64,000 nucleotides of DNA from Begonia masoniana (lineage: Eukaryota > Streptophyta > Magnoliopsida > Cucurbitales > Begoniaceae). The notes under the pieces were generated by a model. It ran no database searches. It saw only the letters and a list, made by a program, of their open reading frames with translations, and was not told where the DNA came from. Position 1 is the stretch's first letter. Each line of letters begins with the position of its first letter. The position numbers and the translations under genes are program-made. Location: positions 20,858,557 to 20,922,556 of the forward strand of contig CM039511.1 of the NCBI GenBank assembly GCA_022432975.1, written 5' to 3'. Of the stretch, positions 1,931 through 63,798 are shown one piece after another.

Positions 1931-3292
1931 GCTAACGCAATAATGAAAGTTTCGTAAGGAACTGGAGCAGGCTATAATGAGACAAACAAATGGTTTACAT
2001 ATTGTTGCAACGTAACTCGGGATGCGAGGTAAGTGCATGTTTGCATGCGTTTTGGCCGATTGACCTACACCACAAAGGATGGCTAGAATGTGGAGTTAGA
2101 GATGTTAGTTGGAGAGTTTTGGTCTTGGTTAGGGTAGAAATTTTAGGTTGTGAGTGAGTTTATATATGGTAGTTGCTTGTTTACTTGATGATTTGTTTAC
2201 CAATTTATTATATGCTTACTGCATTCGAGGAATGCATATGTGACATGCATCCATACATCATGGTTTTTCAACGCATAGAAAATGGTTTTATGTATATGTT
2301 TTCATGTAAACAAGAGCAAAAAAACACAGTACAATAAAATACGTAAATAGTCATTGTGGGTAGGGAACTGAGTTTGGCTGTCCTGTCAGAGGGACCGTCA
2401 GGTGTGTCATTCAACTTCCCCTAGAGCGAGTTGGTCATCCCACCAGGTGGACATTCAGTAAGGCCATCTCTCCTCTAGAATCAGGACCCCAATAACTCAT
2501 GTCATGCAAGAAAATAAAGAACAGATCTAGTTGCATGATTTATGAACAACATAGCATATTCATGAGCATGTATGCATTTTCTTTTACTTACATCACTTAC
2601 TGAGCGTTAGGCTCATTAATTTACTTTGTGGTGTAGGTAATATTAACACAGGAGAGGACTTTAATCCTCAAGTGGATTGATAGAGCAGTTGGTGGATGAC
2701 GTCCATGGGGTGTGCTTGTAGCTGTTGGGGCAATTTTGACCTGTGGGCTAGTCTGCATGTATTTTTGGTAAAGGTGTATAAACGGATGTTTTAATTTTAG
2801 TTAGATGATGGGCTTACTTGTCAGATTAAGAATTTTGTTATGTTTTGCGAGTATAATAGGGATTTCTGTCGTTTTTGTTACTTAAGGAAATGATGTTGTG
2901 TTTTATTGGGATAAAATGTGAATTAGGTTGCTTTATGGTTGAATGGATGATTTGAGGTATGATTTTAAATCTTGATAATGTTTATAGGTTGAAAGTGATT
3001 TGATGAAGTTTATAAATGATAGGATGAAGAAGAGGAGAAATGAAAAGAAGGGTGATAAGGTCGAAGGTAGAAGTAGCAAGGCTGTCAATCGATCAGCCAT
3101 TAAAAAAAAAAGAGAAGAAGAAATTTTTTTTAGAAAATTTCACACACTTCTTATACGAAGTTTTATAAGGGAAATTCACTCGTTCTGGAGAATTTTTATA
3201 GACGTTTAATATTTTCTAAATTTTATTTAGAATTTCTTAGAAAGTTTCGCAATAAAGTCAAGTTAGTAATGGCCGAGTCACGGGTCATCACA
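1930..3292 (+). mobile_element. Gypsy-type LTR (left boundary unresolved)
   Basis: The right end is GGGTCATCACA at 3292, and the next base resumes the minus-strand protease ORF of a gypsy element, so the LTR interrupts it. Inside are GCGAG|GTAAGT (donor GT at 2029), GGCCGATTGACCTACACCAC at about 2054-2073, TTACTGAG at about 2598 and acceptor GGTGTAG|GT ending at 2636. The arms 2064-2077 and 2624-2637 are perfect 14-nt reverse complements. The left end was not located; 1930 is an estimate. Confidence 0.65.
2029..2636 (+). other. Putative LTR intron with complementary ends
   Basis: Bounded by AG|GTAAGT and TGTAG|GT, 608 bp. The 14-nt arm at 2064-2077 (cctacaccacaaag) pairs perfectly with 2624-2637, which spans the acceptor. 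Splicing is inferred from consensus only. Confidence 0.5.
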
Positions 3293-4645
3293 CTGATAGA
3301 CGCCATAACAGACAGCCTCTTTGTATTCTTCAGGGCTTTCAAAGTGTGTTTCACGCCATCTGGGGGTTGAAAACTCACTATTCTTAATATGCAGTCAATT
3401 GTTGCATGATGCTTGAACAACCAGTTCATCCCCAGAATCACATCATATCCCGTTATCCCCATAATAATAAGATCAGCAGGTAGAGTCCTGCTTCCCACTG
3501 ATACCACACTATCACGCATTACTTGACTAGAGTGCATGTGCTCACCAAAGGGTAAAGTCACATCATATACGTGTTCTATTGTTGTAGGCCATAAGTCCAA
3601 TTTGACGAAAAATGCAATTGCTATAAATGAATGCGTCGCACCGGAATCAATTAAAGTGTAAGCAGGTATGGTATTAACAAGCACAGTACCTGACACCACG
3701 GCTGGATGGTCATCATCTCTGAACTCAACCATGGCAAATATTCGAAGCGTCACACGCGTCGAACCTTTCTTCATCATTGGACAATCTTTGATGATGTGGC
3801 CGACCTCATTACAATTGAAGTATCGAGTTACCCTTGGCTTCGGACAATCCCTGGAAATATGCCCAGCTTCATTGCAGTTACGACATCTGCCTGAATTCAT
3901 TCTACACTCCCCCAAGTGGTGCCTCATACACTTTTGACACTGAGGAAACTTCCCAGACTCTTGTAGACGCTTGTCGCTCCTTTGGCCACTCAGGTTGTCG
4001 CCTGGTCTTTTCATGCCCCTTTGCTGCTGTTGAGGGCCTCCTCTGTTCTATTGCGGTGTGATCTCCCTGAAAAATCTTCTGGGAGCTTCGCGTTGCTTGA
4101 CACACTTGAGGTCTGCTTCCTCCACTTCTAACGCTTTAGCCACAACTTCGTTGTACGGCATGCCCTGGGTGCCCACTATTTTCACTCCCTTGTAAATCTC
4201 AAGTTTCAGCCCTTGCACGAACAGAATAACTTTGTTCTCCTCCTTACTGATCAAGTGGCTGGCAAATCATGACAAAGCTTTGAACTATCGGATGTACTCA
4301 GACACGGACCACATTTGCTTCAATTGTAAGAACTCCATCATTTTCGTGGCTTGAACCATGTTGTTGAAGTACTTCTCATAAAAAGCATCCTTGAACTCCT
4401 TCCACCTCATGGCCTGAACATCAACAGTGGCCTCTATAATGTCCCACCAATATCGGGCGTCCTTCGCCAGGTGGAAAACTGCAAAATGAACCTTGTCTTC
4501 CTCTTCCACCTTGGCACACTTGAACATACGCTCGATTGTATGAATCCATTCTTCTGCAGTAGTTGGATCCGATGATTTCCCTTTGAAAGTCGGTGGTCTC
4601 AGCCTCGAAAAATCTTTCACCACCATTGTCACTGGACGCGCTCAC
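3293..4645 (-). pseudogene. Ty3/gypsy Gag-protease, degraded
   Basis: One minus-strand reading frame runs from about 4632 down to 3293, broken only by in-frame stops (TAG and TGA near 4282-4264, TAG near 4045). The N-terminal part is the retrotransposon Gag domain (TAEEWIHTIERMF, ARYWWDII, YEKYF). Two CCHC zinc knuckles follow (CRNCNEAGHISRDC and a degraded FNCNEVGHIIKDC, where Y replaces the first Cys). A retropepsin segment with active site LIDSGATHSF comes next, so the catalytic Asp is present. The rest of pol is missing because the plus-strand LTR ending at 3292 interrupts it. In these elements Gag packages RNA and the protease matures Gag-Pol. The copy is dead; stops look like CGA/CAG to TGA/TAG transitions. 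Confidence 0.9.
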
Positions 4646-5672
4646 CCGGTGTGCGCACTGCGTGACCCCTCAACGCGCACGTTGTGTACGCTCACACGAG
4701 ATGATCGATCGGCATATGACACCGATCAATCGGCACCGTCTCGGGTGCCAGCTCTACTTACATTGATCACTCCTCGAGGTTGACACCTCTATTGGTTTTA
4801 CACTAACCGATCGACACCCGTATGCATAAGTCGACACCTTAATTGCCTCTGTTTGCATTGGTCGATCTTTGTGGTCGACACCTTCATCAGTTTTTCACTA
4901 ATAGGTCGACACTTGTGTGCACAGGTCGACACTTTGACCCAATCTGCACTGAAGGGTTGACACCTATATGCACAGGTCGACACCCTATTTTCCTCGGCTT
5001 GCACCGGTCGAACCTTGTGGTCAACACCTTTAGCAGTTTTTACACTAACCAGTCGACACTTGCATGCACAGATCGACTCTTTGTTTCTTACAGCCATCAA
5101 CCTTAGTTAAAAACTTCACAACTTTTCAAAAAATGGACAGCACAACATTTTAAATCGTTAAAACATAAAACCTGCGTTTTCCAAACCAAATCTTTCCCAA
5201 ATAGTTCCAAAATAAGTTTATACATCAAATTACTCAAAAATCGTATAAATTTATCTATCCAATCCAAATCAAAATACCATTTTCCTAAGTCATTTTCGGA
5301 ACATAAAAATACAACCTCAAACCTTACTTCCAAAACATTGCCCCACCCCGGGTTAAATCGCCCTAACAAATGGCCAGATCGTCGCACGAGAGCACTCCTC
5401 CAACTGCCCTATGCTTGAAATGCTCAAGGATCTCACCTGCTAAGTCTTCGTCATCTACATCACATAACTCAACTATTAGCCTAACGTCAAGCAAGTAATG
5501 CAATAATGAATAAAAACATCTCACACCCTAGCATATGCAATTTCTACCATCTCGTTTCGTTTCCGTTCTCGTTTTCGTTCTTGTTTTTGTTTCATTCTCG
5601 TTTCCACTTCATTTATTTACTCTTTCTCTTTTGCTTAATTAGTTCATAGGAATAGGCACACCTCACAGTTCA
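4646..5672 (-). mobile_element. 3' part of gypsy 5' LTR (split by insertions)
   Basis: This is the downstream (U5-side) part of the minus-strand LTR whose TG start is at 22493. The acceptor-like GTGATGTAG ends at 5455, and the pairing arm 5455-5463 matches 21627-21635 with one wobble. It directly precedes the gag at 4645, as a 5' LTR should, but I see no clear primer-binding site, so a small deletion is likely at about 4650. Sequence around 5640-5672 resumes at 9090, across a solo LTR. Confidence 0.6.
4680..5095. repeat. Word cluster: GTCGACAC / CGATCGACACC
   Basis: Irregular repetition of the word GTCGACAC and variants (gatcgacac, ggttgacacc, caggtcgacac), spaced 20-40 bp apart. Many words are palindromic at GTCGAC. 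It lies in the LTR just upstream of gag, the position where other LTRs in the window carry different words. Confidence 0.8.
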
Positions 5673-6746: not shown

Positions 6747-6803
6747 GTAAGTAGTAGTGTAGTTGTAAGTGCTTGAGAGTAGCCCAGAATGGCCTACACC
6801 ACA

Positions 6804-7565: not shown

Positions 7566-7654
7566 TATGTATGTGATGTGATGTGATATGTGGGTACAGT
7601 TGTTGTTAGTTGGTATGGTTAGCATGCAGCATGTTTTAAGCATAGGAGAGTAGA

Positions 7655-11702: not shown

Positions 11703-12805
11703 GTAAGTTCTCGTGATCTTCTCTGGCCGATTGGCCTACACCGTACGTCGAAGTCGTCTCGAGGAGTTTTGGTGATGCCGATGTTTAAATTGTTTTGGTC
11801 GGGTAGTTAGGATTAGTTCTGTATAGGTTATGCTTTTAAATGTTTTATTGTCTCGATGGTACGAATCATGTATGTTTACTTTCTGTCGTATTGAACTGTT
11901 CACGCATCACGTGTTTTAAAAGAACATAGAAAATGAATTTCTGCATGATGTTTTAAAGAAAATGGCGATGTGGCTTAGAGAAGGGCACAACCTATTGTGA
12001 AGACTGATTATGGGTTTGTCACAATACCGCATCTATTGCATACTCATACAGTTATACAATTACAGGTCATGCGAGATAGGGCTCAGGCACGCCTGTACGC
12101 GTTGTAAGCGTGTACCCCCCTCTTCTAGCTGGAAAGAGTAGTCCGACCGCTGGATGTGCTCTCTCCGGTTAGGAGGCTGAGATCTCGGTGACACCCACAG
12201 AGTAAAGATAAAGAAAATGCTGCATGATTTCTGAACTCATATGCACAGCACGCATTGCATTTACGTAGAGCTTACTGAGATTTTTATCTCATAGGTGTCT
12301 GTGACTACGAGGAAACAGGTGAGGATGATGTTCCTCCTCCCGAGGCATGAGTCCAGTTGAGGGAGGATGATTGCGGGAGTGTACTGGCGCAGTCGAGGCG
12401 TTTCATGACCTGTGGGGATGTAGGTATTTTGGGATATTTTGAGTAGAAAACGTACAGATAGAACATTTTAGGGTGTTTGGTTCTGATTAGTTGATAGGTT
12501 TACATTTTAATGTTTTTAAACGTTTTAGAAACTGGTTTTGTAAAATGTGTGATAATAGGGATATGTTTGATTTTTAAACATATCCATGCAGTTCGTTTTC
12601 ATGAGAATATATTTCGTTTTAATTGAGATTTGAGTCGTTGTTTCGGGTGTTTGATGAAGTGTGGAATGACGAGATTTTGAGAGAGTTATATTAGAATGTA
12701 TGGTTGTGAGGTGGGATGTAAAATTGGATGAAATGGTGAAGGGTTTCGATTAATGTATGAGGAAGTGAGGGAAGAGAAGAGAAAGAAGAAGTGATGAGGC
12801 AGAGA

Positions 12806-15833: not shown

Positions 15834-16444
15834 CTACACCATACATAAACACACTATGAGATAAATCTCAGTAAGCCCTAGTAAATGCGATGCATGCTGT
15901 GCTATGAGTTCGATAAATCATGCTTTATTTTATCTTTCTATGCAATGCTCTGTAGGTGTCACCGAGATCCTATACCCTCTAACCAGAGAGAGCTCATCCA
16001 GCGGGCGGACTACTCTTTCCAGCTAGAGGAGGGGGGTACACGCTTACAACTCGTACAGCCGTGCCTAAGCCCCACCTCGCGTGACCTGTAACTGTAAGCC
16101 TTTCGGCCGGTGTACTGTAAGCCTTTCGGCCGTGAACTGTAAGCCTTTCGGCCGTGCACTGTAAGCCTTTCGGCCGATGCTATGCTTTACGTTATCTTTA
16201 AAACTCTGTGCGGAAATTCGTTTTCATGCTTTTCTTTAAAACCAAGTGATGCGTGAACAGTTCAATATCATACAATAAACAAACAACACATAGACCATCG
16301 GGACTTTAAAAACGTAAACTATAAACTCCTAAGACCTAGCTACCCAAACCGAGCAAAACTAACTAAAGGCATCTCCAAAACGCCTCGAGACGACACGATG
16401 TACGGTGTAGGCCGATTTGGCCAAAGAAAATCACGAGAACTTAC
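15834..16444 (-). other. Putative LTR intron with complementary ends (copy B)
   Basis: Donor GAG|GTAAGT (GT at 16444-16443), acceptor TGGTGTAG ending at 15834. The arms 16400-16411 and 15833-15844 pair over 12 nt with one G-U wobble. Within it, 16088-16173 has four copies of a ~21-bp word containing CCTTTCGGCCG. Confidence 0.5.
16088..16173. repeat. Short tandem repeat TAAGCCTTTCGGCCG
   Basis: Four copies of about 21 bp (TGTAAGCCTTTCGGCCGTG). They are absent from copies A and C at this position, so this is a recent local expansion in the LTR intron. Confidence 0.9.
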
Positions 16445-33830: not shown

Positions 33831-34929
33831 TTCCAACTCCTTTCCCTCTGCGAACAGTCGCCTCTCACCTTTTCTTTTCCTTCTTCCTTCATTTCCTCAC
33901 GCCCTGCACTTCACACTCACAACTCTCATCACACAACACACACTCCTCCCCTTTCTTCTTCCTTCATTACACTCCATCACATTCCACAAACACATTTCTA
34001 CACAATAACTCTATCTCTCACATACATTACTCACGCTATCGATCACTCGTCCATCGACTCAAAACACAAATAAACATAACCCATTTCGTAAAAACGAACC
34101 ACGTGGTTCCGTTTAAAAGTTTAACATATCCTCCTATTTAAAAATAGTTAAAGCATTACAAAAATTCTTTTAATTTCCAAAAAACGATATATAATCCATC
34201 CAAACCCAAAACATCCTAAAATATAACTATACATATTTCCCATATTCTATCCATCGATTCCTAAAACATTTACCTATGTCCCCATGGATCAAAATCACGC
34301 CCCAACTGCCAGCGCACTCCCACGGGCCTCCTCCTTCAACATGCTCATACTTCAGGCGGATGGACGTCTTCCTCACCTGTCTCAATATCACCTACACCAT
34401 AAAATTTAACACGTGAGCTAGAGGCTCAGTAAATCTAAGTGAATGCAAATGTATGCTATGCTATGCTATGCTCTTTCAAACCATGCTTTCTTTTCATTTC
34501 TTTTTTCATTTCTTTCTTTGGGTTTCTATGGGTCACCCGGGGCTTCACTCTCGTTAGATAGGAGCGGCACATCCTGCGATTGGATAGCCCCTCGGATCTA
34601 ACCGGGGGGAAAGCATGCTTCCTTCGACAGCCATGCCTGAACCACCGCACCCGGCGTGTCTATCTTTGCATGCATTTACTTTCTTTGTTTACCTTTTTCC
34701 ATGTAAAAGTGCTTTGAAATTCATTTTGCATGCGTGCTTAGAAAAACAATGCATGGACATGCTCGATACAATAACAAAACAATGAAAATAAAGCATTTAC
34801 AATCAACAAACACTAAACATTCTATAACTTAAAGTAACCTAACTACCCAAGCTGTCTACTCGAACACAATTCATCTCCAATTCCTCAATCGACACTATTC
34901 GGACGGTCAAACAAGTCACAGAGACTTAC

Positions 34930-36087: not shown

Positions 36088-36990
36088 AGAAAAATCCGAG
36101 GTGAAGTGCTCAAGTTGCTAAAGGAAACCAGGTAAGTGAGTGAGTAGGATTCCCGGCCTTTAGGGCCCTACATCACGAGGTTACTAAGTTAAAGTTGTTT
36201 ATGATGCCCGAGAGTTGTTTGTGATATTGTCTATATGGTTATGATATATGAGTTAGCAACATGATTGTTTGTTGAATGATTGATCTGTCCTTCTAGTCCG
36301 ATGAAATAAGCGTATTCATACTCATGCTTCATGATTGTTTCCTTTTCAAGCATATGTAAATGTTTTAAGTGTATGTTTTTCCTTCACGATCAAGATATGA
36401 ATATGAAACTTATGTAACAAGGATTAAGAGAGGGTTGAGGGCGGTTTGGCGTATGTCACTGTCCAAAATGAGGACCATGAATACGGCCCGTAAGGGACTA
36501 TGTACACTTTCACTGTCAACCCCCTTTTCGGCACAAATTCTCCCTTAATCCACATGATGTAAATGATGAACATGAACGTGATGAAAACGATGAACAAGAA
36601 CAAGAAAAGATCATGAACATGTGTTTTCCTTAAACTGCATACATGTTAGCATTGCACTCCTTACTAAGCATTAGACTTATAGTTTAAACCTTATGATGTA
36701 GGTGCAGAACTACCAGGTGAGGATTCTAAATTCAGTGAGGATGTCTAAGACTGGTTGCTGGATGGAGCTCAGGGTGACAGTGAGTGGCTGGAAGGCGATT
36801 ATGACCCCTGGTTACTGCTCTTATGATGTTAATAAGAATTATACATACTGAAATTAAGTAGGAAGGGATTTTCTTAACACGATGGATTTTGGGATTTGTC
36901 TGACTGGATTTCTAAGTTTAAGAATGATCATGAAGAGATAGAATGATTTATGTTTTATTTAAGTCTTCCGCTACACGTATTCTGGATGAG
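36088..36990 (+). repeat. 3' LTR of Tekay-like element, second part
   Basis: Continues the LTR begun at 32720. Exon end AACCAG|GTAAGTGAG (donor GT at 36132), GGCCCTACATCAC, acceptor GATGTAG|GT ending at 36701. Mid-intron holds a long inverted repeat: 'ggattaagagagggttga' near 36420 against 'tcaaccccc' and 'tcccttaatcc' near 36515-36552. The right end merges into the next element without a clear CA. Confidence 0.75.
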
Positions 36991-37320: not shown

Positions 37321-40154
37321 TGTAACACCCGGCATTTTTGCCATGTAAATATTCCCGAAATTCATTTAACGGGAAAAATGATTACATTAATACAATGAAT
37401 GTTTTAATAGGTTTATCGGAGTGTTTAATAGAAAAACCAAATTGATTAACTAATTAATAAATTTGTTGGAACTAATGAGGGGCAAATTGGGGAGCGAATT
37501 AAGGTTGGTGGGAGGAAGCCAATGGATGAATGACACATGGCTGACTTGTTGCAAAATCCATGCCTTCTCTCTTCCTCTCTTCCTTTCTTCTTTTCACTCT
37601 AGCGTGAAACATCCTTCTGCCTTCTCTGTTTTCTCTCTTCGAGGCGACAGTGCCAAATCTCCAAAACTTGTTTCTCCTGCTTCCTTCTGTTTTCTTCAGC
37701 GAAGGTAATCATCTAACCTAGTTGACAAGTATGGACATGTTAAAAGTGAGTTTTGTTGAAGTTTAAGGTTAAGGTGTTTTGGAGAAAGCTCACTATTATT
37801 ACGTGAAAACACTTTGGATCGTTTTCTAAAAGTCTGAATGGAGTTAGAAGCATATCCTACAAGCTATTAGTTAGCATTTGCAGCTTGTTTATATTCCTTC
37901 CATGCATGTACAGGTCTGTGCATAACCGAGACGTTCAAGACTATCAACTCTACAGCAAACAGGTAAGTTCATACCCGTAGGTTGGCTCTTAAGGCCCTAC
38001 ATCACGGAGACTCTAGGATTTTACTACTGTCGAGAGGTTTCAGGTAGATAAGTTGAAGTTATATTCCGAGTAACCTGTTCCTCCTTTAAGTTCTGTTGTG
38101 TTGTTTCTGTTGTCTGCTGTTTTAATTGTAAGCACAGTGAATGTCCATGCAAACACGATTTTCCCGAAAGTTAATGCAAAACGGTTTTCTGTACACGGTT
38201 TGAAGCTAAGAAATATAAAATCTGACTGTAATGTATTGGTTAAGTGCGGGACGGGGACTGACCTACTATTTTGTACAGCTCCGTCTGTTTTGTTCTGTTT
38301 CTTTTCTATAAATTTGTTATGTGCCTGTCGTGCACTTGTCAGTTCCCCTATAAGCCCCACTTATACCCCTCTGACAGATAAAAACAATGTTCTGTAATGT
38401 CACTGTATTCTGAAAAGTTCATGCATAGTATATGCATCACTGCATTTATATGTTCTTACTGAGTTTTAGACTCATAGGTGAGCTCTCTGATGTAGGTACT
38501 GAAACTGTGGGTGAGGACTTTGTGCCTCAAGATGATGATTTGATGTAGTTGGCGGATCGAGCTCATGGGGGTTGGTTGCTACAGCCAGACATATTGCTGT
38601 CCCGAAGTTTAAGTTTTTTTTTAGTAAAGTCCATGTCTGTAAACCCTACTGAAACTCTGGTGTTTTTGTTTTAAAACTCTATTGGGGTTCTGTGATTTTG
38701 TTTTAAAAACTCTGTTGGAAATTCTGTTGGGAATATAAAATGTATAGTTCTGATGTTCGAGTTTTAAATCTATGTTTGACAGTCGATAGTTGTCTCCTGA
38801 AATATTATGTTGTTGATGTATTTAAAACCTTTGTATTTGACAGTTGAATTTATGTTCTGAAGTATTCTGGAATTGTTTGGAATATTTTCTATTTCAGGGT
38901 GTGTATGGGTTATTTCTGATTTTAGAGCCATCCATGCAATCTATTTTTCTTAAATTTTTGTCGTGTTTTCCTGGTATGTCCAAGGTCATATTTCAAATCG
39001 TTTTCTGAAGCTTGAAGCTTCCATACCTTATGTTTTCATGTTTTCTGTCTCCATGTATTCCTGTCAAAAGTTGTCAATTTCTGCCTTTAAAACTACATCG
39101 CCCGCCCAGTTTATCTATATCCACCGCTGCTTTAAATTCACTTCTATAGCTGCCCGTTCTAAAAATCACGTCCACCACTACTTGTAAAATCATATCCACC
39201 GTTGCCCGCTGCCCGTTTAAAACTGCATCCACCGCTGTCTTTACAATTTCATCTTCTGCCTGACGTCATCTGTTTTGTTTTATTCACATCCACCGGTGAA
39301 CAGTGCACTTCTGCCTGCATACCCCGTTGCCTTTAAAATTTACATCATCCGCCTGACGTTATCTGTTTTGTCTTATTCACGTCCACCGGTGAACAGTGCA
39401 CTTCTGCCCGCCCCCACCGCTGCCACTGTTCATTTTTGTCGTATTCACATCCACCGCTGCTTTTAAAATTCATATCCACCGCTGCCTTTGTTTACTCACA
39501 TCCACCGCTGCCACTGTACACTTTTGTCTTATTCACATCCACCGTTGTCTATGTTTACATTTGTTTAAAATCCACTTCTTCCGCCAGTCTTCTGCATATG
39601 TTTTTCCGCCTTTATTTCCTGTTTATTCTGTTTATTTATTCTCATCGACCCTTTCTGTTCCCCGTTCTTCCCAGTCTCTTCTGTTATTCACTTCTATGAT
39701 CCGGTTATAAATTAGCTCCCAGTTTTTAAATCCAGAGAAAGTTCTATCGCTCGGTAATGTTTTTAAGGGTTTGCTTTTAAAAGTTTCAGTCTGTTTATTT
39801 ACTTCTCCCGCCTTTTATCACCCGATCCTGTCATTCACTGTAGCCCTACTTCCTGCATGACATCCAGTTAACTGTTTCCCGTCTACTTTGAAAATCAAGA
39901 GAAAGTTTTCTCTCTTTGAGAAGTTTTAAAGGTTCGATTTATAAAGGTCCTCTGTCTTCTGTTCTTCGAACTGTAATTGTCATCCAGTTTTATACATATG
40001 TCATCCAATCCCATTCCCAGAGAAGGTTTCTTCTCCCTGTAACGTTCTAAAAGTTTCAAAAAAAATATATATATAGTCTGTGTTTTTCTGTTATGTCCCG
40101 GAGTGATGGCTTGGCTCTCGGATTCCGATCGGAATCGGGTCTCGGGCTGTCACA
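37321..40154 (+). repeat. 3' LTR of the second Tekay-like element
   Basis: Preceded by a purine tract ('aaggtgggtggaa'). TGTAACACCCGGC at 37321, CGGGCTGTCACA at 40154, 2834 bp. Small exon 37914-37962 ends AAACAG|GTAAGTTC. Arm CCTACATCA (37996-38004) complements TGATGTAGG (38488-38496) at the acceptor. TTACTGAG is near 38457. Confidence 0.9.
39090..39560. repeat. Word cluster: CATCCACCGCTGCC
   Basis: CATCCACCGCTGCC and variants (atccaccgttg, cgtccaccggtgaacag, tctgcctgacgt) recur about 15 times, interspersed with TTTAAAATT. Confidence 0.85.
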
Positions 40155-41620: not shown

Positions 41621-44600
41621 TATAACACCCGGCATTTTAGCCATGTAATTATTCCTTGAACTATTAAATGGGATGGATTGGCCATTAATAAAATGTATTT
41701 TTTTATTGGAATTTTGTGATGCCTTGCGGAAAGATGGATTGTTGAGAAAAAACGAATCGAAGAATTTAAATAACAATTTAAATTGGAAAGCCAAACTAAG
41801 TGTAACCAAAACAAAACATTTTGGTTAGAAATCAATGGAAGGGCAAAATGGGAAGCCAATTAAGGTTAGTGGGAGGGAGCCAATGGTTGGATCCCAAGTG
41901 TTCAACTTGTTGAAGAAGCCATGTTTTTCCTCCTACGTGAAACCTTCATTTCATCTCTCTGTTTCTTCTCTTCCTTCCTGTTTTCTCTCTTCCAGGCGAC
42001 TGAAATAAATTTTCAAAACTTTGTTCTCCTATTTTCTTCCATTTTCTCTGTTACAGTAATTGTTTTTCATTAGTTAACGAGTTTAGGTTAGTTACTTTTA
42101 GTTTTATGAATGTTTAGAGTTGATAGCCCGATTATTCACGATATAGGTTTTGATCACCAAGGACGTGTGAACAAAGCATTAAGCTCTACAACCACAGGTA
42201 AGTTCATGTGTGTAGATTGGCTCTTAAGGCCCTACATTACGGAGATACTAGGTTTTACTTCTGTCGGGTAGTTTTTGGTAGATACGTTATAGTTTACATT
42301 CTGAGTTGTCTGTGTTATCTCTGTTGTCTGCTGTTTTAATTTTAAGCACAGTAAACGGCCATGCATACACGATTTTCCTGAAAGCTCATACAAAATGTTT
42401 TCTGCACATGTTTTGAAATTAAGAAAGATAAAAATCTGAATGTAATGTATCGGTTAAGTGTGGGACGGGGACTGGCCCTCTGTTTCTGTTATGTTCTGTA
42501 TTTTTGTATGTGCCTGATAGTGCACTTGCCAGTTCCCCTATAAGCCCCACTTATACCCCCCTGCCAGTGAAAAGTAATATTCTGTAATGTCACTGTATTT
42601 CTGAAGATTCATGCATAGCATTTGCATCACTGCATTTTCATGTTCTTACTGAGTTTTAGACTCATAGGTGAACTCCCTGATGTAGGTACGTAACCCGTGG
42701 ATGAGGATTTTGTGCCTCAGCCAGATGCATAGATGGTTGGTGGCACGAGCTTTCGGGGGTGGTTGTGACAGCCAGACATATTCCTGACTGAGAGAGTGAA
42801 GTTTTAAATTTTGTATTTTGTTTATGTTTCAAAAACTTCTGTTTTGGTGAATTCTTGAAATGTATGTCAAGTTCTGTACCGTTTCTGAGATTTTAAAATG
42901 GTGTATAGACTTAGTTTTGATGTATTTAAAACCTCTGTTTGACAGTTGAATGTATGTTTTGAATTATTCTGGAACTGCTCGGAATCTCTCCTTTTAGGTT
43001 ATGCATGGATTATTTCAAATTTTAAATCGATCCATGCAGTTAGATTTTTGAACTTCTGTCGTGTTTCAAAACACGTTTTAAAACTGTGTTTTGGAATCGG
43101 GTTTTGGGGTTTTGAAGTTTTCATGCTTTCTGTTTTATGTCTCCCTGTAAAATAGTCGTCCATTCTGCGTTCAGTTTTTGCCTTTCAAGTTTTCCAGTAT
43201 TTGGCTAAGTGTTAGTCGTCCACGCTGCCCTAAAAAAAAGCAGTTGTCCATTTTGCCTTTAAAACAGTCGTCCACGTTGCCCTTCAAAAACAGTTGTCCA
43301 TTTTGCCTTTAAAACAGTCGTCCACGCTGCCCTTCAAAACAGTTGGTCCATTTTTCCTTTAAAACAGTCGTCCACTGCTTCTGCAATTCTATTGTCCACT
43401 GCTTCTGCAATTCTATTGTCCACTGCTTCTGCACTTCTATTGTTCACAGCTTCTGCACTTCTATTGTCCACTGCTTCTGCAATTCTATTTGTCCACTGCT
43501 TCTGCACTTTTATTGTCCACTGCTTCTGCAATTTTATTGTCCACTGCTTCTGCACTTCTATTGTCCACAGCTTCTGCACTTCTATTGTCCACAGTCCACA
43601 GCTTTTGCACTTCTATTGTCCACAGCTATTGTCCACTGCTTCTGCAATTCTATTGTCCACTGCTTCTGCAATTCTATTGTCCACTGCTTCTGCAATTCTA
43701 TTGTCCACTGCTTCTGCAATTCTATTGTCCACTGCTTCTGCAATTCTATTGTCCACTGCTTCTGCACTTCTATTGTCCACTGCTTCTGCAATTCTATTGT
43801 CCACAGCTTCTGCACTTCTATTGTCCACTGCTTCTGCAATTCTATTGTCCACTGCTTCTGCAATTCTATTGTCCACTGCTTCTGCAATTCTATTGTCCAC
43901 AGCTTCTGCACTTCTATTGTCCACTGCTTCTGCAATTCTATTGTCCACTGCTTCTGCACTTTTATTGTCCACTGCTTCTGCAATTCTATTGTCCACTGCT
44001 TCTGCAATTCTATTGTCCACAGCTTCTGCACTTCTATTGTCCACTGCTTCTGCAATTCTATTGTCCACTGCTTCTGCAATTCTATTGTCCACTGCTTCTG
44101 CAATTCTATTGTCCACTGCTTCTGCAATTCTATTGTCCACTGCTTCTGCAATTCTATTGTCCACTGCTTCTGCAATTCTATTGTCCACTGCTTCTGCAAT
44201 TCTATTGTCCACTGCTTCTGCAATTCTATTGTCCACTGCTTCTGCACTTCTATTGTCCACTGCTTCTGCAATTCTATTGTCCACTGCTTCTGCAATTCTA
44301 TTGTCCACTGCTTCTGCAATTCTATTGTCCACTGCTTCTGCAATTCTATTGTCCACTGCTTCTGCAATTCTATTGTCCACTGCTTCTGCAATTCTATTGT
44401 CCACTGCTTCTGCAATTCTATTGTCCACTGCTTCTGCAATTCTATTGTCCACTGCTTCTGCACTTCTATTGTCCACTGCTTCTGCAATTCTATTGTCCAC
44501 TGCTTCTGCAATTCTATTGTCCACTGCTTCTGCAATTCTATTGTCCACTGCTTCTGCAATTCTATTGTCCACTGCTTCTGCACTTCTATTGTCCACTGCT

Positions 44601-51017: not shown

Positions 51018-51798
51018 TTACATTAAAAAAAAATGACAACGTATTATGAGCGAACTGTTTAGAACGTACTGTGTCTCATCATTTATGTTGAAACCCATAA
51101 ACGTGTCTTGGGAAGCAGCAGTGCCTGAAGTAGATCCTCGGTTAGGACAAGTGCGTTTATTGTGCCCGTACTGCCGACAGGTACCACACGCCATTCTTGA
51201 GTTCCACCTACTAGCTCTCGAACTTGACGGCTCATCGGCATCTTGCACTCTGGTCTTCTTGGGTCTACCAGGTTGGCGATATCTTCTTGGCGGGACTAGT
51301 TCCACCATACCTGGCACATCCGGCCACATTAATTGGCCGTTCATGGGTTGAATAAAATTAGCGTACATCTGCAGCAATGTCATCCGGTGATAGCATGGAT
51401 GCACGTAACTTTCTGGCTCCATTCTCATGAAAAATATGCATGAAATGGCATGGGCACAAGGGATCCCAGTAAGCGTCCACCGGGTGCAGGAGCACTCCCA
51501 CGTATTCAAGTCGACAACGAATTGTTCGTTGCCGTTGCTCACTTGAAATCGTAAACCTGCCCCGAGCGTAGGGGACCAATTTGCAGCTGCATCTGCGAGC
51601 TTCTCAATCTTCTTATATATTTGGGGACACAGGAGAGTCGTCAATCCCGCCATCTTCTGAAATTTTTTAACGATCCGAGTCATCATGTACGTTCGGATAT
51701 TCTCAAACATGGTGATGATCGGTTTGTCCCTGGCAGTCAATATAAGTGCATTAAATGACTCACACAAATTGTTTAAGCCAATATCGCACTTGGGAATT
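51018..51798 (-). pseudogene. MULE transposase, C-terminal part (SWIM + zinc knuckle)
   Basis: The minus strand encodes NNLCESFNALILTARDKPI, then VVDLNTWECSC-TRWTLTGIPCAH, a SWIM zinc finger (CxC...CxH), followed by YRMTLLQMYANFI-like helices and PGRPKKTR. The end is a CCHC knuckle CGTCRQYGHNKRTC. This is the standard C-terminal half of a plant MuDR-type transposase (mudrA-like). Before the solo LTR at 51799 it was continuous with 54273-54784. This half is open without stops for about 249 codons. Confidence 0.93.
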
Positions 51799-52199
51799 TG
51801 TAATATCCGGTTTGTACGGACCTTTGATTATATTATTATTATATTATTAGTGGCATTTTTGGTAAATATGTCAAATCAGGTCCGTTTCACAAAAGGAAAG
51901 CGTCATTACGATTCTAACGAATAATAAGAATTTTAAGGAATTTACGGAAATTTTCGGAGATCAAACACTATATTCCGAGTAAATACGCTTTTCGTAATGT
52001 AAAAGACGTTCTCGTAAAAATAGCAAACAAGGTCCAAATTGTGAACGGACAGTTTTAATAAATCCCTGGCAATGAATAGAAGTTGTTGGCAAAATATGGA
52101 ATTTTCGAGAATCCGAATCGCTGGACGATTAACGAACCGAACGACGAAATCAATATAAAAATCAATGAAGGGCATTTTAGTAATTCGCCAAACTAAATT

Positions 52200-52207
52200 T
52201 ATAAATA
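52200..52207 (+). promoter_or_regulatory. TATA box of solo LTR C
   Basis: TATAAATA followed by a strongly CT-rich leader; in register with copies A and B. Confidence 0.65.
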
Positions 52208-52741
52208 ACCTAATTTCTCTTCTCTCCCTCACTTCTCTCTTTCTCTTCTCTGGAAACAAATCGACAGAGAGCTCCAACCCTCACGGCCGCCGGCGATTTC
52301 CATCGATCCCGTCCTCCGTTTTCCTCCGTTCTTCCTCCGATCTTCGTCATTTCTTCTCCTCTCGCTACTCTCGGTATGTACCTACAACCTTGGGGCTTTT
52401 ATTCCGAGTTTTACGGTGTTTTAGCAAACTAGGGTTTCGTTCGGAATTCGTTAAAAACGCGAATTAGGGTTCGTAATTAATAGGTTAGCCTTGATTAAGT
52501 ATGTATTGAACGTATTGAACGTTATTGGACGAAGAAAAGTCGATTTGCGAAAAAGTTATAAATTGGTAAAATTTCGGGTTTTAGGGGAAAACTCGTTATT
52601 TGGATAATCGAGCTATAATTAATGTTCGAAAAGCTTTAATTAGCTAAGTGAAGAATTTAGGAGAATTCTTTAGCTAAGTTTTGAAATTTGGACATTTATG
52701 GTTTAAATTGGTTTTAACTGTGAATGTCGTATTTTTCTCAG

Positions 52742-52785
52742 ACACACGACTCTCGTGGACATAGCTCGGGTTCTGCGCGCTCGAG
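52742..52785 (+). other. Conserved small LTR exon (copy C)
   Basis: 44 nt, preceded by TATTTTTCTCAG and followed by GTAAGTTCTCGTGA, with CTCTCGTGGACATAGCTCGG. The best-looking splice sites of the family. Confidence 0.6.
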
Positions 52786-53366
52786 GTAAGTTCTCGTGAC
52801 TTGCTTGACCGAAAGGTCTACACCATACTTCGTCGTCGTATCAAGGATCCTTGAGGGTTCCTTGTTTTACGTTGTTTAGGTTGGGTAGCTAGGTTATGTT
52901 GTATTGTCTGGTTAATATGTATGTTGTTTGTTTACTTTCCGCTGATATGAACTGTTCATGCATCACGGTTTTCGAAAGTCATGAAAAGGAATTTCCGCAC
53001 GTGTTTTTAAGAAAAGGAACGTATATCTGAAATGAAATCTGTAACGAAATCTGAATGAATAAACGTAATCTGTCTGTTTCTGGTCATGCGGGATGGGGCT
53101 CAGGCACGGCTGTGCGTGTTGCAAGCGTGTACCCCCCCTCTCTAACCCCACGGGGTAGTCCAACCGCCGGACGGGCCCGCTTGGGTTAGTGGGTCGAGGT
53201 CTCGGTGACAATTCTGTCTGTCTGTGACGTAATGAATCTGTAATCTGTAATTTTGTATCTGTAATCTGAATCTGAGCATGATTTCTGAATGACATACGCA
53301 CGCATGCATCTGCATTTACGTAGCTTACTGAGATTTCAATATCTCATATGTGTCTGTATGGTGTAG
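52786..53366 (+). other. Putative LTR intron with complementary ends (copy C)
   Basis: GT at 52786, TGTAG at 53366. Arm CTACACCATAC (52818-52828) is the exact reverse complement of GTATGGTGTAG (53356-53366), which includes the acceptor. Confidence 0.55.
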
Positions 53367-53794
53367 GTGATCTGCTAGGTGACGTAGACCCAGGTGAGGA
53401 CGACGTTCCTCCTCCTGATGTCGGAGGCAGTTGATGGATGATGCTCGTGGGAGTGCGCTGAGCAGTCGAGGCGCTTTGACCCGTGGGGATCGTCTGTGTA
53501 CGTATTTTGGGGGATTAATGTTAATTATGAATGTATAGACATTTTAGGTTGCTTGGATTCTGGATAGGGATTAGATAACATTTTGGTAAATGTATGTAAA
53601 ACGTTTTGTTTTGAACTGTTTAATGAATGTTTGAAAATGTTTTGATTGACTTTAGATTTGGTATGCTCGGTTTTAGAGCTACCCATGCAGTTGGACTTCG
53701 CAAAGTCTGCTGCGAGTCGATTGGGTTTAAGTTATAAGCGTTGCAATAAAGTATGAAAATGTGATAGAAAATGGGTAGAGAATGAAAGAGGATT

Positions 53795-54025
53795 TGCTCT
53801 CTGGAATCGGATTCCAGAGAGTGAAGCTGGGGGAGTTAGCTCTCTGGAAATTTCAGAGAGCTAAGTGTTCTGGTTCTGGAAAGGCACAAGGCGACTGGGC
53901 GCCGTGCTGGTCGCTGCATTATGCAGCGACCAGGCGCTGCATAATGCAGCGATCGTGCGCTGCATTATGCAGCGCACATGGCGACCAGGCGCTGCATATA
54001 GCAGCGCCCGGTCGCCGCTTCACTT
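53795..54025. repeat. Word cluster: GCGCTGCATAATGCAGCG
   Basis: Palindromic words GCTGCATAATGCAGC, GCGACCAGGCGCTGC and CTCTCTGGAA/TTCCAGAGAG. Same LTR position as the GATCGATC words of copies A and B. Confidence 0.9.
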
Positions 54026-54272
54026 TGAGGGCAGAATTCCAGTTCTGCCCTCCCACTTTTTCAGATCTGTTTTTAAGTTTTTAATTAAAGTTTTAAATTT
54101 ATTTTAGTTTGTTTTTAAATGGTTTCAAAGCTTTACTTAATTCCGATTTCAGTTCCGTTTTCGATTTCGCTTTAATTTCCGCGTAAGGTTTTATTTAAAG
54201 TATAAGAAAGTAATAAGTGAAAAAAAAAAAAATTTATACGGGAAATACGGGTACAGTATTAGGGGTGTTACA

Positions 54273-54784
54273 GAATTGGAGAAGGCATGACTAGCCCAAT
54301 ATCTAGGGTCTTCTCCTTGAAGCCCGCCGAGCTGAGCCTTCGTAATTTCCCCATTTCTAAATTGAAATGAGCTCTTGTGGGTGCCCTAGCTGCCTTCCAC
54401 ATCGCTTCTTTATATGCTTTGCCCCGAAACAGCCCTTTAAAATTATTGTACATGTGCCGCAGGCAGAAGCGGTGTTCGGCTTCACTAAATGCGTCATCCA
54501 CGGCATTCCTCAAACCCTGATATTAAAACAAGTTAGTTAGTTACACACTTTAATTACACAACAACTAATTTAATTAAACAACATACCTTTTGTCGATCCG
54601 AAACGATCGTCCAGCCGGTTCCATCTCCAGTGTATAGGTCCGCCTTCAAAAGTCTCAAAAACCACGTCCATGTTTCCTCGGTCTCTTTTTCGACGTTGGC
54701 AACAGCGACGGGATATATTCCATCATTAGCGTCAATACTAACGGCTGTCAGTAATTGTCCCGGAACAGGAGCCTTCAAAAAAAA
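54273..54784 (-). pseudogene. MULE transposase, catalytic part with one intron
   Basis: The minus strand encodes PVPGQLLTAVSIDANDGIYP and NVEKETEETWTWFLRLL, then SDRQK. A 70-bp intron (54517-54586, GTATGT...ATCAG) follows, then GLRNAVDDAFSEAEHRFCLR and HMYNNFKGLFRGKAY. These are the DDE blocks of MULE transposases, with Asp in SIDAND and in SDRQ. A frameshift near 54320 leads to the Y-W-A-S-H-A-F-S segment that continues across the solo LTR. The N-terminal domain is missing: coding stops at 54784 where unrelated sequence begins. Confidence 0.9.
54517..54586 (-). other. Transposase intron
   Basis: GTATGT at the 5' end and TATCAG at the 3' end; removing it joins SDRQK to GLRNAV in frame, matching the family. 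Confidence 0.85.
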
Positions 54785-56225: not shown

Positions 56226-56941
56226 TTGACTTTGACCAAACACTTAACCGAAATTCATACAATTTCCCTCCTGTACTTACACACCATTCACTCAGAACTT
56301 CCAAAAACATTAAAAATAACATTCTCCATTTCCAGAGACATCAAATTGAACATTATATACATATATGTTCACGAACTGTCCATAAAACACATCCAAACAT
56401 CAATATTAACTATCCAGAAACCAAGCATCCTAAAATGTTTCTAAGCAATTCATTTCATATCATTACCCATCGGCCCATTTAAACCCATAACCCTCAAAAT
56501 ACATAACCTATGCTCCCACGGGTCAAATTTACACCGACTGCAAAGCGCACTTCCACGACATTCTTCTTCAATCAACTCATTCTTCGGGTGGAAGAACCAC
56601 ATTCTCTCATTGCTCAAGATTACCTACACCATAAAAACATTCTATGAGCTAAAAAGCTCAGTAAGCTTCGTAAATGAGACATGCATGTTGTGCGTATGCA
56701 ATTCATAAAATCATACTGTTCTTTTGTACATTCATTTCTTTCATATCCTTTCGTTACATATTAGAGGGGTAGGCAACCTCTGCCCCACCTAAAGCAGACA
56801 ACCTTTGTTCCACTTTAAGCAGGGAATGCCAACTTCTAACCCTTGTTGACAACCTTTGCCCCACTTGAAACAGACAACCTTTGTTCTGTTCCCAGCAGGG
56901 AATGCCAACTTCGAGTAGACAACCTCTGCCCCACTTGAAGC

Positions 56942-57552
56942 TAGGGGTGTGCAAAACCAGTTTCGGTTCGATTTTGGGAAGGAACCGAACCAAACCGAGC
57001 GGTTTCGGGTTCAGATTTACCCAGAACAAAATGGTCTTACGTACCAAAACTGAACTTAGGAACCAACGAAATTGCTTTACAGGTTTCGTGGTTCGGTTTC
57101 GGTTCGATTTCGGTTCGGTTCGGTTTTGGTTCTACAACTTATTTTCCAAAAATTTAAATAATGTTAAACTTTCAAATGGAGGAGATAAAAAACAATTCGT
57201 ATTAGTCAAAATATAACAAAAAAAGTAGTAGAAGATAAAAAACATAAAGTAAAGTCAAAAGTACAATAACTCTTTTAGGAAAATAAAAGTATAATCATAA
57301 CAAAAGCAATTTTAATTATTAAAAAGATTCTTTATTTATTATTATTATTTTTTTAATAATTAAAATTCCTTTGTGCAAAACCTATTCGGTTCGGTTTGTA
57401 TCGGTTGTAACGATCCAAACCAAAAAACGACTAATAAGCGGTTCCTACAAATGAAACTGAAGATCGGTTTTCAATGGTCAAAATCGCTCCGACAGAACCT
57501 ATTTCACCGGTTCCGGTTGATTCATCGGTTCTGTTCGGTTTGCACACCCCTA
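56942..57552. mobile_element. hAT-type MITE, copy 1 (611 bp)
   Basis: Termini TAGGGGTGTGCAAAACC and its inverted match ...GGTTTGCACACCCCTA. Flanked by the perfect 8-bp TSD CTTGAAGC (56934-56941, 57553-57560), which fits hAT. The interior is built of GGTTCGGTTTCGG words around an AT-rich core. No transposase. Confidence 0.93.
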
Positions 57553-57703
57553 CTTGAAGCAGACAACCTTTGTTCTACTTTAAGCAGAGAATGTCAACTT
57601 CGAGCCCTTGTTGACAACCTTTGGCCCACTTGAAATAAACAACCTTTGTTCTGTTCCCAGCAGGAATGCCAATCGAGTAGACAACCTCTGCCCCACTTGA
57701 AGC

Positions 57704-58313
57704 TAGGGGTGTGCAAAACCAGTTTCGGTTCGATTTTGGGAAGGAACCGAACCAAACCGATCGGTTTCGGTTTCAGATTACCGAACCAAAACTCGTCTTT
57801 TATCGTACCAAAACTGAACCGGAACCGAACAGAAAGTTTCGGTTCGGTTTCGGTTCGATTTCGGTTCGGTTTCGGTTTTGGTTCTACAACTTATTTTCCA
57901 AAAATTTAAATAATGTAAATTTAAATTGGAGGAGATAAAAAACAATTAGATATATAGTCAAATATAAAAAAAAATGTATTAGAAGAATAAAAAACATAAA
58001 GTAAAGTCAAAATTACAATAAATCCTTTTAGGAAATAAAAGTAATATCATAACAAAAGCAATTTTAATTATTAAAAAGATTCTTTATTTATTATTATTAT
58101 TTTTTTAATAATTAAAATTCCTTTGTGCAAAACCTATTCGGTTCGGTTTGTATCGGTTTTCACCGATCCAAACCAAAAACCGAACCTAATTAAGCGGTTC
58201 CTACAAAATGAAACTGAAGATCGGTTTTCAAATGGTCAAAATCGATCCGAACCGAACCTATTTCACCGGTTCCGGTTTGATTCATCGGTTCTGGTTCGGT
58301 TTGCACACCCCTA
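57704..58313. mobile_element. hAT-type MITE, copy 2 (610 bp)
   Basis: Same termini and same TSD CTTGAAGC (57696-57703, 58314-58321) as copy 1, 762 bp further on. The two arose by duplication of one insertion together with the flanking LTR repeat rather than by two insertions. Confidence 0.93.
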
Positions 58314-58804
58314 CTTGAAGCAGACAACCTTTGTTCTACTTTAAGCAGAGAATGTCAACTTCGAGCCCTTGTTGACAACCTTTGGCCCACTTGAAATAAA
58401 CAACCTTTGTTCTGTTCCCAGCAGGGAATGCCAACTACGAGTAGACAACCTCTGCCCCACTTGAAGCAGACAACTTTTGTTCTACTTTAAGCAGGGAATG
58501 TCAACTTCGAGCCCCATAGTATCGTTTACATGCATTGCTTTAGTTCGTTCTTTCTTACATGAAAACGTATGCATAAATCCTTTTTCCATGCTTTTTCATT
58601 TTAAACATGATGCATGATCGTGAACGAAGCATTAAACAGAAAACAAGCATAAAGCAGTATTAAAACCTAAGAAAACCTTGTAGAATAACAGATACCTTAA
58701 CCTAACCATCAAATCTACTCCTAGACCATAAACTCACTAAATCCTCAATCAATGACAATCTTTATGGTGTAGGCCAATCGGCCAAGTAAGTCACAAATAC
58801 TTAC

Positions 58805-62492: not shown

Positions 62493-62918
62493 TGTAACGA
62501 CCCCTATTCCCAGCAAGATATTGTCTGCTCTGGGGATTGGGCCGCAGCCCAATATCCTCCTCTCACGGCTTTGTGTAGCGAGAACTTCCCAGAAGGTCAC
62601 CCAACCTGGAATTGCTCTCGCCGAAGCACTTTTAACTTCGGAGTTCTTATGGGATCCGTTGTCAATTGAGCTCCAAAACGCGTCTTGCTATTTTGGGAGG
62701 ATCTCCTTACATATGTTTCATTTCCACATACTTCTCCAAGCGATGTGGGATTGTGACGACCCCCCCCCCCCCCCTTTCCACGACCAAACCCTCTGGCCCA
62801 ACCCTCTGGGATCCGCGGAGTTTTAACCCACCTCCGGCCCCAACCGGGCTCTCGAGCCTTTGAGGATCCGCGGAGGATGGGTGGTTCCACCACATACGTG
62901 TCAAGTCGGGTCATCACA
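62493..62918 (-). mobile_element. Cassandra-type TRIM solo LTR with 5S-like segment
   Basis: Plus strand TGTAACGACCCC at 62493 to GGGTCATCACA at 62918, 426 bp. The TSD is a perfect GCGCA (62488-62492, 62919-62923), and the empty site is seen in the sister LTR near 56540. It contains a 5S rRNA-like stretch on minus, the hallmark of Cassandra elements. It has a poly-C run of about 16 at 62760-62775. No second LTR, so a solo LTR. Confidence 0.9.
62577..62660 (-). ncRNA. 5S rRNA-like segment in Cassandra LTR
   Basis: The minus strand reads CGGATCCCATAAGAACTCCG, 'aagttaaaagtgcttcggcg' and 'gggtgaccttctgggaagtt', matching about positions 30-110 of plant 5S rRNA with several changes. It covers the A box and C box of the internal pol III promoter. 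It is a retrotransposon part, not a functional 5S gene. Confidence 0.9.
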
Positions 62919-62997
62919 GCGCACTCCCACGACATTCTTCTTCAATCAACTCATTCTTCGGGTGGAAGAACCACATTCTCTCCTTGCTCAAGATTAC

Positions 62998-63798
62998 CTA
63001 CACCATAAAAACATTATATGAGCTAAAAGGCTCAGTAAGCTTCGTAAATGAGACATGCATGCTGTGCGTATGCAATTCATAAAATCATACTGTTCTTTCG
63101 TACATTCATTTCTTTCATATCTTTTCGTTACATATTAGAGGGGTAGGCAACCTCTGCCCCACCTAAAGCAGACAACCTTTGTTCCACTTTAAGCAGGGAA
63201 TGCCAACTTCTAACCCCTGTTGACAACCTTTGCCCCACTTGAAACAGACAACCTTTGTTCTGTTCCCAGCAGGGAATGCCAACTTCGAGTAGACAACCTC
63301 TGCCCCACTTGAAGCAGACAACCTTTGTTCTACTTTAAGCAGGGAATGTCAACTTCGAGCCCTTGTTGACAACCTTTGGCCCACTTGAAACAGACAACCT
63401 TTGTTCTGTTCCTAGCAGGGAATGCCAACTTCGAGTAGACAACCTCAGCCCCACTTAAAGCAGACAACCTTTGTTCTACTTTAAGTAGGGAATGTCAACT
63501 TCGAGCCCCATAGTATCGTTTACATGCATTGCTTTAGTTCGTTCTTTCATACATGAAAACGTATGCATAAATCCTTTTTCCATGCTTTTTCATTTTAAAC
63601 ATGATGCATGATTGTGAACGGTGCATTAAACAGAAAACAAGCATAAAGCAGTATTAAAACCTAAGAAAACCTTGTAGCATAACAGATACCTTAACCTACC
63701 CATCCAATCTACTCCTAGACCATAAACTCACCAAATCCTCAATCAATGACAATCTTTATGGTGTAGGCCAATCGGCCAAGCAAGTCACAAATACTTAC
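62998..63798 (-). other. Putative LTR intron (TR-GAG 5' LTR)
   Basis: Donor GT at 63798-63797, acceptor ATGGTGTAG ending at 62998. Arms 63755-63767 and 62997-63009 are exact 13-nt reverse complements. Confidence 0.5.
63134..63512. repeat. Tandem repeat of the TR-GAG 5' LTR intron
   Basis: Units GCAGACAACCTTTGTTCTAC and 'gggaatgccaacttcgagta'. Near 63310 'ccccacttgaagcagacaac' is the empty version of the MITE target site. Confidence 0.92.

Follow-up and report, generated by a model that had tools for sequence, protein, structure and literature searches.

How does a retrotransposon retain an intron despite its passage through RNA? The question is raised by a stretch of 64,000 nucleotides from Begonia masoniana (contig CM039511.1, positions 20,858,557 to 20,922,556; "the window" below means this whole stretch), in which the long terminal repeats (LTRs) of Ty3/gypsy retrotransposons appear themselves to hold two introns, at very high copy number and with a covarying structure on the 3′ splice site of the second. 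A first-pass annotation, made from the letters alone, had reported eight pairings between the 5′ region of an LTR intron and its 3′ splice site. All eight are exact letter for letter, including the one with a G-U pair, and all lie inside LTRs of Ty3/gypsy elements; the range given for them (2029-63798) omits the 117-657 pair, which the same annotation lists. In the reading that we prefer, and to which we give a probability of roughly 0.55, there are two introns in the LTR leader, and the second of them has at its start a segment complementary to its 3′ splice site. The two would fold into a helix (P1) that restrains splicing, and the RNA that is replicated would keep intron 2. Such a system makes the retention of an intron testable: introns 1 and 2 of the same leader are internal controls, and intron-less LTRs count the failures.

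The LTR leader, its probable introns and the predicted helix P1

Families are named here by a position in the window: F1 (2029), F2 (686, minus strand), F3 (52786), F3c (16444, minus), F4 (63798, minus), F5 (37963) and F6 (36132). Copies outside the window are F2b (L033), F3d (L034), F3g (L087/L088) and F13 (L091/L092). The F3 copy of the window is a solo LTR with the TG...CA ends and the 5-bp target-site duplication expected of a Ty3/gypsy LTR. Directly inside the 5′ LTR of an F1 relative (L031) lies the primer-binding site TGGTATCAAAGC, and after the LTR of an F3 relative (L043) the site TGGTATCAGAGC, both presumably of the tRNA-iMet type. Polypurine tracts precede the LTRs of L042 and L134, and in F3, the family examined for an integrase, the C-terminus of an integrase is encoded before the LTR (PF24626 SH3_Tf2-1, 92.7 bits in L042). 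No match to a Chromo domain was found in the F3 tail; one of 17.4 bits, below the cut-off of 25.1, occurs in a neighbouring element in L034. A placement among the chromoviruses, in the Tekay (Del) clade, is likely but provisional.

In F1-F5, the families examined for it, the promoter side of the LTR is followed by an exon A rich in pyrimidines, then by an intron 1 of 208-619 nt, an exon B of 44-61 nt, intron 2 and exon C. Both introns are inside the LTR, and intron 2, which is the one pointed out in the first-pass annotation, is 0.48-0.8 kb long (2.2 kb in a single copy). It starts with AG/GTAAGT (the slash marks the splice junction), followed by a hairpin H1 (GGCC-GATT-GGCC, GACC-GAAA-GGTC, GCC-TTCG-GGC and others), which in F3 and F1 begins 21-25 nt into the intron, and by the 5′ arm of P1, CCTACAYCA..., which lies 29-35 nt from the start of the intron in the eight copies of the window that were measured. 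It ends with a second hairpin, H2, and the 3′ arm ending TGTAG/G. H2 is first recognised in the present analysis; its stems are TGAGC with GCTCA, TTAGC with GCTAA, TGAGT with ACTCA and TGAGAT with ATCTCA, with a single mismatch in F6 and also in F13. H1 and P1 would compete for the two Cs opening the 5′ arm, which have possible partners both within H1 and in the G/G of the splice junction.

The limits of intron 2 are those of a U2-type GT-AG intron with a consensus donor, AG/GTAAGT and TGTAG/G recurring across families. Exceptions are the donors ATAAGT at 686 (minus, the copy with the 644-657 arm) and TTGG/GTAAGT at 63798, and the acceptor of L091 (F13, G000:C1:3091639-3091789), in which AG has become AA and an AG stands one base further; L091 retains P1 pairs 3-15 despite this change. 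Pyrimidines occupy 8-11 of the 19 positions from -22 to -4 in intron 2, where most of these positions belong to the arm, as compared with 9-13 of 19 in intron 1.

P1 is found at 9 of the 13 LTR sites of the window, the ninth being the copy at 42198 with one G-U pair. The copy at 11703 has lost the 3′ arm and that at 34929 (minus) the 5′ arm; at 6747 and 21669 (minus) the 3′ side was looked for and not found. The match AGGTAAGT at 24548 is without an arm and seemingly unrelated. When stretches of up to 2.6 kb were scanned for helices with an AG as anchor, the longest was the arm/acceptor pair in F1, F2, F3, F3c and both F4 copies; the 9-bp pairs of F5 and F6 are not the longest because a mismatch follows the nine base pairs.

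The start of intron 2, searched for as AGGTAAGTN{14,40}CTAYAYC, a pattern covering the 5′ splice site and the 5′ arm only, is matched 61,359 times across the assembly of 795 Mb versus 183 times for the reversed pattern, an abundance far beyond chance. Among the 100 matches listed (74 of them distinct) the variable arm position is C in 60 and T in 40, and the H1 stem has at least four pairs in 70 (versus 23% in shuffles), three pairs in 16 and none in 14. The H1 stem varies on both sides in these 100 matches: GGCC with GGCC 48 times, GACC with GGTC 5 times and GGTC with GACC once. In viral contigs the pattern AGGTAAGTN{16,40}GCCTACAYCA gave 40 matches, one of which (L110) has TGRTGTAGG in the right range; at 1 in 40 this candidate viral relative was regarded as chance.

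Several further signals touch the leader. An inner motif, CATGCATCA...GAAAATG.ATTT, is common by eye to intron 2 of F1, F2, F3 and F4. CATGCAT recurs ahead of H2 in F3 and F4. A second helix within P1 is possible. A donor-like CAG/GTGAGG lies about 15-28 nt into exon C (from 53367 onward, in F3c and in the 34929 copy), and a third intron is possible there. A conserved poly(A) signal in intron 2 was considered and rejected: AATAAA is present in F1, F3 and F3c, and absent from F2, F2b, F3d, F4, F5, F5b and F6.

LTR copies that lack introns

That these LTRs contain introns is supported by copies in the genome without intron 1 (five families) or without both introns (one LTR); spliced products with the predicted junctions are seen as genomic traces only. 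For example, when L036 (F1) is read against L032, intron 1 proves to be missing precisely at its junction, with 91% identity over the 183 nt up to it. Copies in which exon A and exon B are joined in one continuous match number 7 in F3, 6 in F2, 1 in F1 (L036), 11 in F5 (including a partial match, 13-105) and 1 in F4, 26 in all. Since the 40 best candidates were scored per joined-exon probe, these counts are lower bounds. The matches fit the probe length within -1 to +2 nt, the letter-by-letter reading being that of L036. Counting each LTR pair as one, and likewise the cluster of F2 copies on C5, reduces the 26 copies to about 17 loci, which represent at least five independent losses, one per family.

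In 25 of the 26 copies the match ends where the GTAAGT of intron 2, following exon B, predicts. The match overruns exon B by exactly as many letters as GTAAGT and exon C have in common (2, 2, 2, 3 and 4 in F3, F2, F1, F5 and F4), as expected if intron 2 was kept in these 25; the F5 match 13-105 stops earlier and is uninformative on intron 2. A junction of exon B with exon C was found in none of the five joined-exon searches and not with a dedicated F3 probe either (40 best candidates each).

One LTR has exons A, B and C joined and both introns missing (C8:13238971, L133-L135). It adjoins its polypurine tract and starts with TGTAACACC. Its junction pattern, GGACRCGAGGTGATATHR with one mismatch, has 162 matches; among the 100 matches listed, 99 read GYEVIL, a string that also occurs in the protease frame of L032, and one is L133. 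The predicted sites of intron 2 thus seem to have served in splicing on at least one occasion, and RNA without either intron has apparently been replicated, though rarely. The idea that intron 2 is no intron at all was dropped after L133-L135.

Two F3 LTR pairs without intron 1 are spaced 6791-6792 nt, whereas 7 of 12 ordinary F3 pairs are spaced 7147-7219 nt (the others 5870, 5885, 7274, 7374 and 8859). The shortfall of 355-428 nt is close to the length of intron 1 (368 nt), and therefore both LTRs of each element seem to be without it, the two LTRs of each pair being assumed to belong to one element. This would seem to be the outcome expected from copying one spliced RNA, and we infer that the intron-lacking copies were reverse-transcribed from spliced RNA.

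Covariation, folding and the possible role of P1

The covariation between families that had been proposed for P1 holds in shuffle tests and extends to H2. The set comprised one representative each of F1, F2, F3, F3c, F3d, F3g, F4, F5, F6 and F13 (10 families or subfamilies). L087/L088 and L091/L092 were included, and L085/L086 and L089/L090, the 3′ side of which is outside their sequence, were excluded. P1 pairs 140 of 160 positions as compared with 127.6 after exchanging arms between families (p = 2e-4); for positions 7-14 the numbers are 73 of 80 and 61.2 (p = 1e-4). For the 14 pairs of P1 together with H2, in statistics that ignore relatedness and with H2 arms chosen by eye, 94.7% of 190 cells are paired (84.4 ± 1.4 in shuffles), 23 cells are changed on both sides (7.4 ± 2.0) and the covariation score is 0.382 (0.179 ± 0.022), values reached by none of 500 shuffles. 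Partners slid by 1-3 columns score at most 0.192. Changes on both sides occur at P1 positions 7, 10, 12, 13 and 14 and at H2 positions 2 and 5, and at H2 position 2 G-C, A-U and U-A all occur; P1 positions 2-6 and 8 are almost invariant. Within families, the P1 arms of F1 are 96.4% conserved versus 85.9% for the whole stretch (7.6% of windows are equally conserved), and those of F2 99.3 and 100% versus 93.0% overall.

Nine introns were folded as isolated RNA with ViennaRNA and their stability compared with that of dinucleotide shuffles. The probability of P1 is mostly above 0.9 in F1, F2, F2b, F4 and F3d (5 of 9), and the terminal AG is unpaired with a probability of 0.00-0.03 in these five and in F5. 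In the proposed mechanism H1 is predicted to stack on P1, and P1 to pair the terminal AG of intron 2 while enclosing about 0.44-0.75 kb of the intron (2.1 kb in one copy). An AG so buried would be poorly used, transcripts retaining intron 2 would serve as the genome for reverse transcription, and those that are spliced, a minority, may have another use, e.g., translation. Because the 3′ arm extends to the splice junction in all ten families or subfamilies (in F13 the position of the AG itself is changed), P1 would conceal the 3′ splice site once folded. Among replicated copies the loss of intron 1 is commoner than that of intron 2 (26 versus 1 when copies are counted, 2e-7), which is consistent with a brake on intron 2. 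The same asymmetry fits equally if intron 2 holds something that the genome RNA needs, and both may be true. The helix had been suggested to sequester or to present the 3′ splice site; sequence alone allows either, and the rarity of copies without intron 2 favours sequestering.

Several results speak against a restraining helix. The probability of P1 is about 0.66 in F5, 0.2 in F3 and 0.01-0.02 in F3c and F6, and P1 is in the minimum-energy fold of only 4 of the 9 introns (F1, F2b, F3d, F4). The stability z-score of intron 2 is between -0.45 and -2.2 in seven of the nine and +0.6 in F5, with flanks ranging from +1.8 to -1.8; F4, at -5.1, is strongly stable. In the covariation set two measures do not stand out: 7 pairs are changed on both sides, a figure that 22 of 500 shuffles reach, and 17 further pair types occur, a figure reached by 150 of 500. 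The arms of F5 are 92.9 and 93.8% conserved versus 90.6% (42% and 37% of windows are equally conserved), and the 5′ splice site and H1 of F1 are scarcely above average (0.89 versus 0.86). The exons of the LTR without both introns were recognised by similarity to L016, F3, F4 and others rather than to a close intron-bearing sister. Independent losses may number as few as 5 for intron 1 (one per family) versus 1 for intron 2, a difference short of significance (one-sided 0.11). Finally, no compensated change in P1 was found when 26 of the 29 F1 relatives were compared with the window copy (L019, L021 and L025, being partial matches, were excluded): of 364 cells 338 are unchanged, and the single changes comprise 18 that disrupt a pair and 8 that preserve it. 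The first-pass annotation had stated that its proposal would be contradicted if arm substitutions disrupted pairing no less often than they preserved it; such an excess of breaks exists within F1 and not between families. We read the breaks within F1 as decay of copies after insertion.

The asymmetry of intron loss could also mean that P1 has nothing to do with splicing and is the closing stem of an intron 2 RNA domain needed in genomic RNA for packaging, dimerisation or export, spliced RNA being merely unreplicated. The 27 intron-lacking copies agree with this, 25 retaining the 5′ splice site of intron 2, one lacking intron 2 and one being uninformative, as does the high stability of F4 intron 2. 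However, a packaging stem need not reach the splice junction as the 3′ arm does in all ten families, z-scores are modest outside F4, and one copy without intron 2 was replicated, so that we consider this explanation unlikely. The opposite effect, in which P1 aids splicing by looping out about 0.5 kb and bringing the 3′ splice site within about 30-35 nt of the 5′ splice site, draws on the position of the 5′ arm near the start of the intron and on the one copy that shows intron 2 to be removable at the predicted sites. It is nevertheless quite improbable, since folding predicts a paired AG in F1, F2, F2b, F4, F3d and F5 and intron-2-less copies are far rarer than intron-1-less ones among the best 40 candidates per probe. 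That the complementarity merely follows from common descent and an unchanging 3′ splice site, with relatedness inflating the covariation, is very unlikely: the near-invariant P1 positions, the two unremarkable shuffle counts and the lack of compensation within F1 agree with it, but not the changes on both sides in P1 and H2, the three pair types at H2 position 2 or the low scores of slid partners.

If P1 does restrain the splicing of intron 2, a wider proposal can be made, which we hold tentatively and at somewhat less than even odds. A group of plant LTR retrotransposons may choose between messenger and genome by one long-range LTR helix that shuts most of intron 2 over its 3′ splice site, folded RNA remaining unspliced and being replicated and escaping RNA being spliced. 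Compensatory change would have preserved this switch across many families and copies in the tens of thousands, and its failures would be the intron-less LTRs.

Features of the window and comparison with known systems

Table 1. Positions of leader features and associated LTR features in the window (slash, splice junction).
Feature	Position	Strand	Basis
F1 intron 2 (608 nt), CGAG/GTAAGT ... GGTGTAG/GT	2029..2636	+	sequence
F1 hairpin H1 (GGCC-GATT-GACC), directly before 5′ arm	2054..2065	+	sequence
F1 P1 5′ arm CCTACACCACAAAG	2064..2077	+	sequence; P1 probability about 1.0
F1 hairpin H2 (TGAGC-GTTAG-GCTCA), before 3′ arm	2601..2615	+	sequence, covariation
F1 P1 3′ arm over 3′ splice site (AG 2635-2636)	2624..2637	+	sequence, folding
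F2 intron 1 (208 nt, GTGAGT ... TTTTAG)	738..945	-	sequence; 6 copies without it
F2 exon B (51 nt)	687..737	-	sequence; intron-1-less copies
F2 intron 2, donor mutated (ATAAGT)	118..686	-	sequence
F2 P1 5′ arm	644..657	-	sequence
F2 P1 3′ arm	117..130	-	sequence
F3 solo LTR, complete (TGTAATATCC ... GTGTTACA, TG...CA termini)	51799..54272	+	sequence
Target-site duplication GAATT, left of F3 solo LTR	51794..51798	+	sequence
Target-site duplication GAATT, right of F3 solo LTR	54273..54277	+	sequence
F3 intron 1 (368 nt), CTCG/GTATGT ... TTCTCAG	52374..52741	+	sequence; 7 copies without it
F3 exon B (44 nt)	52742..52785	+	sequence; intron-1-less copies
F3 intron 2 (581 nt)	52786..53366	+	sequence
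F3 hairpin H1 (GACC-GAAA-GGTC)	52807..52818	+	sequence
F3 P1 5′ arm	52818..52828	+	sequence
F3 hairpin H2 (TGAGAT ... ATCTCA)	53329..53346	+	sequence, covariation
F3 P1 3′ arm	53356..53366	+	sequence
F3c intron 2 (611 nt); arms 16400-16411, 15833-15844	15834..16444	-	sequence
F4 intron 2 (801 nt); arms 63755-63767, 62997-63009	62998..63798	-	sequence, folding
F4 intron 2 grown to 2181 nt through internal repeats; arms 58761-58773, 56623-56635	56624..58804	-	sequence
F5 intron 1 (209 nt)	37705..37913	+	sequence; 11 copies without it
F5 exon B (49 nt)	37914..37962	+	sequence; intron-1-less copies
F5 intron 2 (533 nt); arms 37996-38004, 38488-38496	37963..38495	+	sequence
F5 second copy, intron 2; arms CCTACATTA and TGATGTAGG, one G-U	42198..42685	+	sequence
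F6 intron 2 (570 nt); arms 36167-36175, 36694-36702	36132..36701	+	sequence
F3-like copy that retains its 5′ side and H2 but has its 3′ arm deleted	11703..12290 (right limit approximate)	+	sequence
LTR copy with 3′ arm (TTTATGGTGTAGG), without 5′ arm	34392..34929	-	sequence

Tandem repeats are expanded in or beside F4 intron 2 (55914-58514, 61785-63508) and past the 5′ arm of the 6747 copy (6802-7612), as if the interior of intron 2 tolerated growth. The F3 solo LTR begins, at 51799, inside a SWIM zinc-finger frame (PF04434, 51021-51827, minus), which we take to be a likely MULE-type transposase; ahead of it, 50243-50776 is a near-perfect palindrome, the many overlapping inverted repeats of which suggest a simple repeat. 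Nested elements in the window include a gag-protease frame (PF08284, PF00098; 3223-4047, minus), an integrase core (PF00665; 17275-17871, plus) and a Transposase_32 (PF20167; 48940-49629, plus). A long tandem array with a period of 24 nt (43482-45635) has open frames on both strands.

Ogre, a Ty3/gypsy element of the Tat lineage, has its intron between gag-pro and rt-rh-int, in the internal part of the element, whereas here the introns are in the LTR leader and hence in both LTRs. In retroviruses such as HIV-1 most splice acceptors are outside the LTR, and HIV-2/SIV have leader introns located in the LTR. In cellular genes, long-range intronic helices control splicing, a distal intron segment pairing with a splice site; the helix described here differs in being borne by a mobile element, in its genome-wide scale and in covarying between families.

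According to passages of a 2025 review, plant LTR retrotransposons are generally without introns, Ogre and EVADE (Ty1/copia) being named as intron-containing exceptions (PMC12786077). Splicing of plant retrotransposons, as far as published passages describe it, concerns coding regions, the space between them, or reading frames (PMC12786077, PMC3735527, PMC6317226, PMC7730604). The introns found here are not coding-region introns of the Ogre, BARE or EVADE type, both being inside the LTR. In BARE1 (Ty1/copia) splicing divides the translated from the replicated RNA pool, and attempts to amplify DNA copied from spliced RNA are reported to have failed for BARE (PMC3735527), whereas copies resembling such DNA exist in the genome here. 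For the sunflower elements Tyran and Varan, the available passages describe unspliced genomic RNA alongside isoforms with two introns spliced, which affects the gag and RT-RH reading frames; these passages mention neither an LTR intron nor structure at a splice site (PMC7730604). No earlier description of a plant leader intron within the LTR whose 3′ splice site is paired in a (covarying) helix was found among titles and beginnings of abstracts from the open-licence literature. A comparable case is HIV-1, a retroelement that likewise needs unspliced genomes and has a structured leader around its major splice donor (PMC4974535): there it is the 5′ splice site that is structured, whereas here it is the 3′ splice site that would be covered, and both sites are in the LTR.

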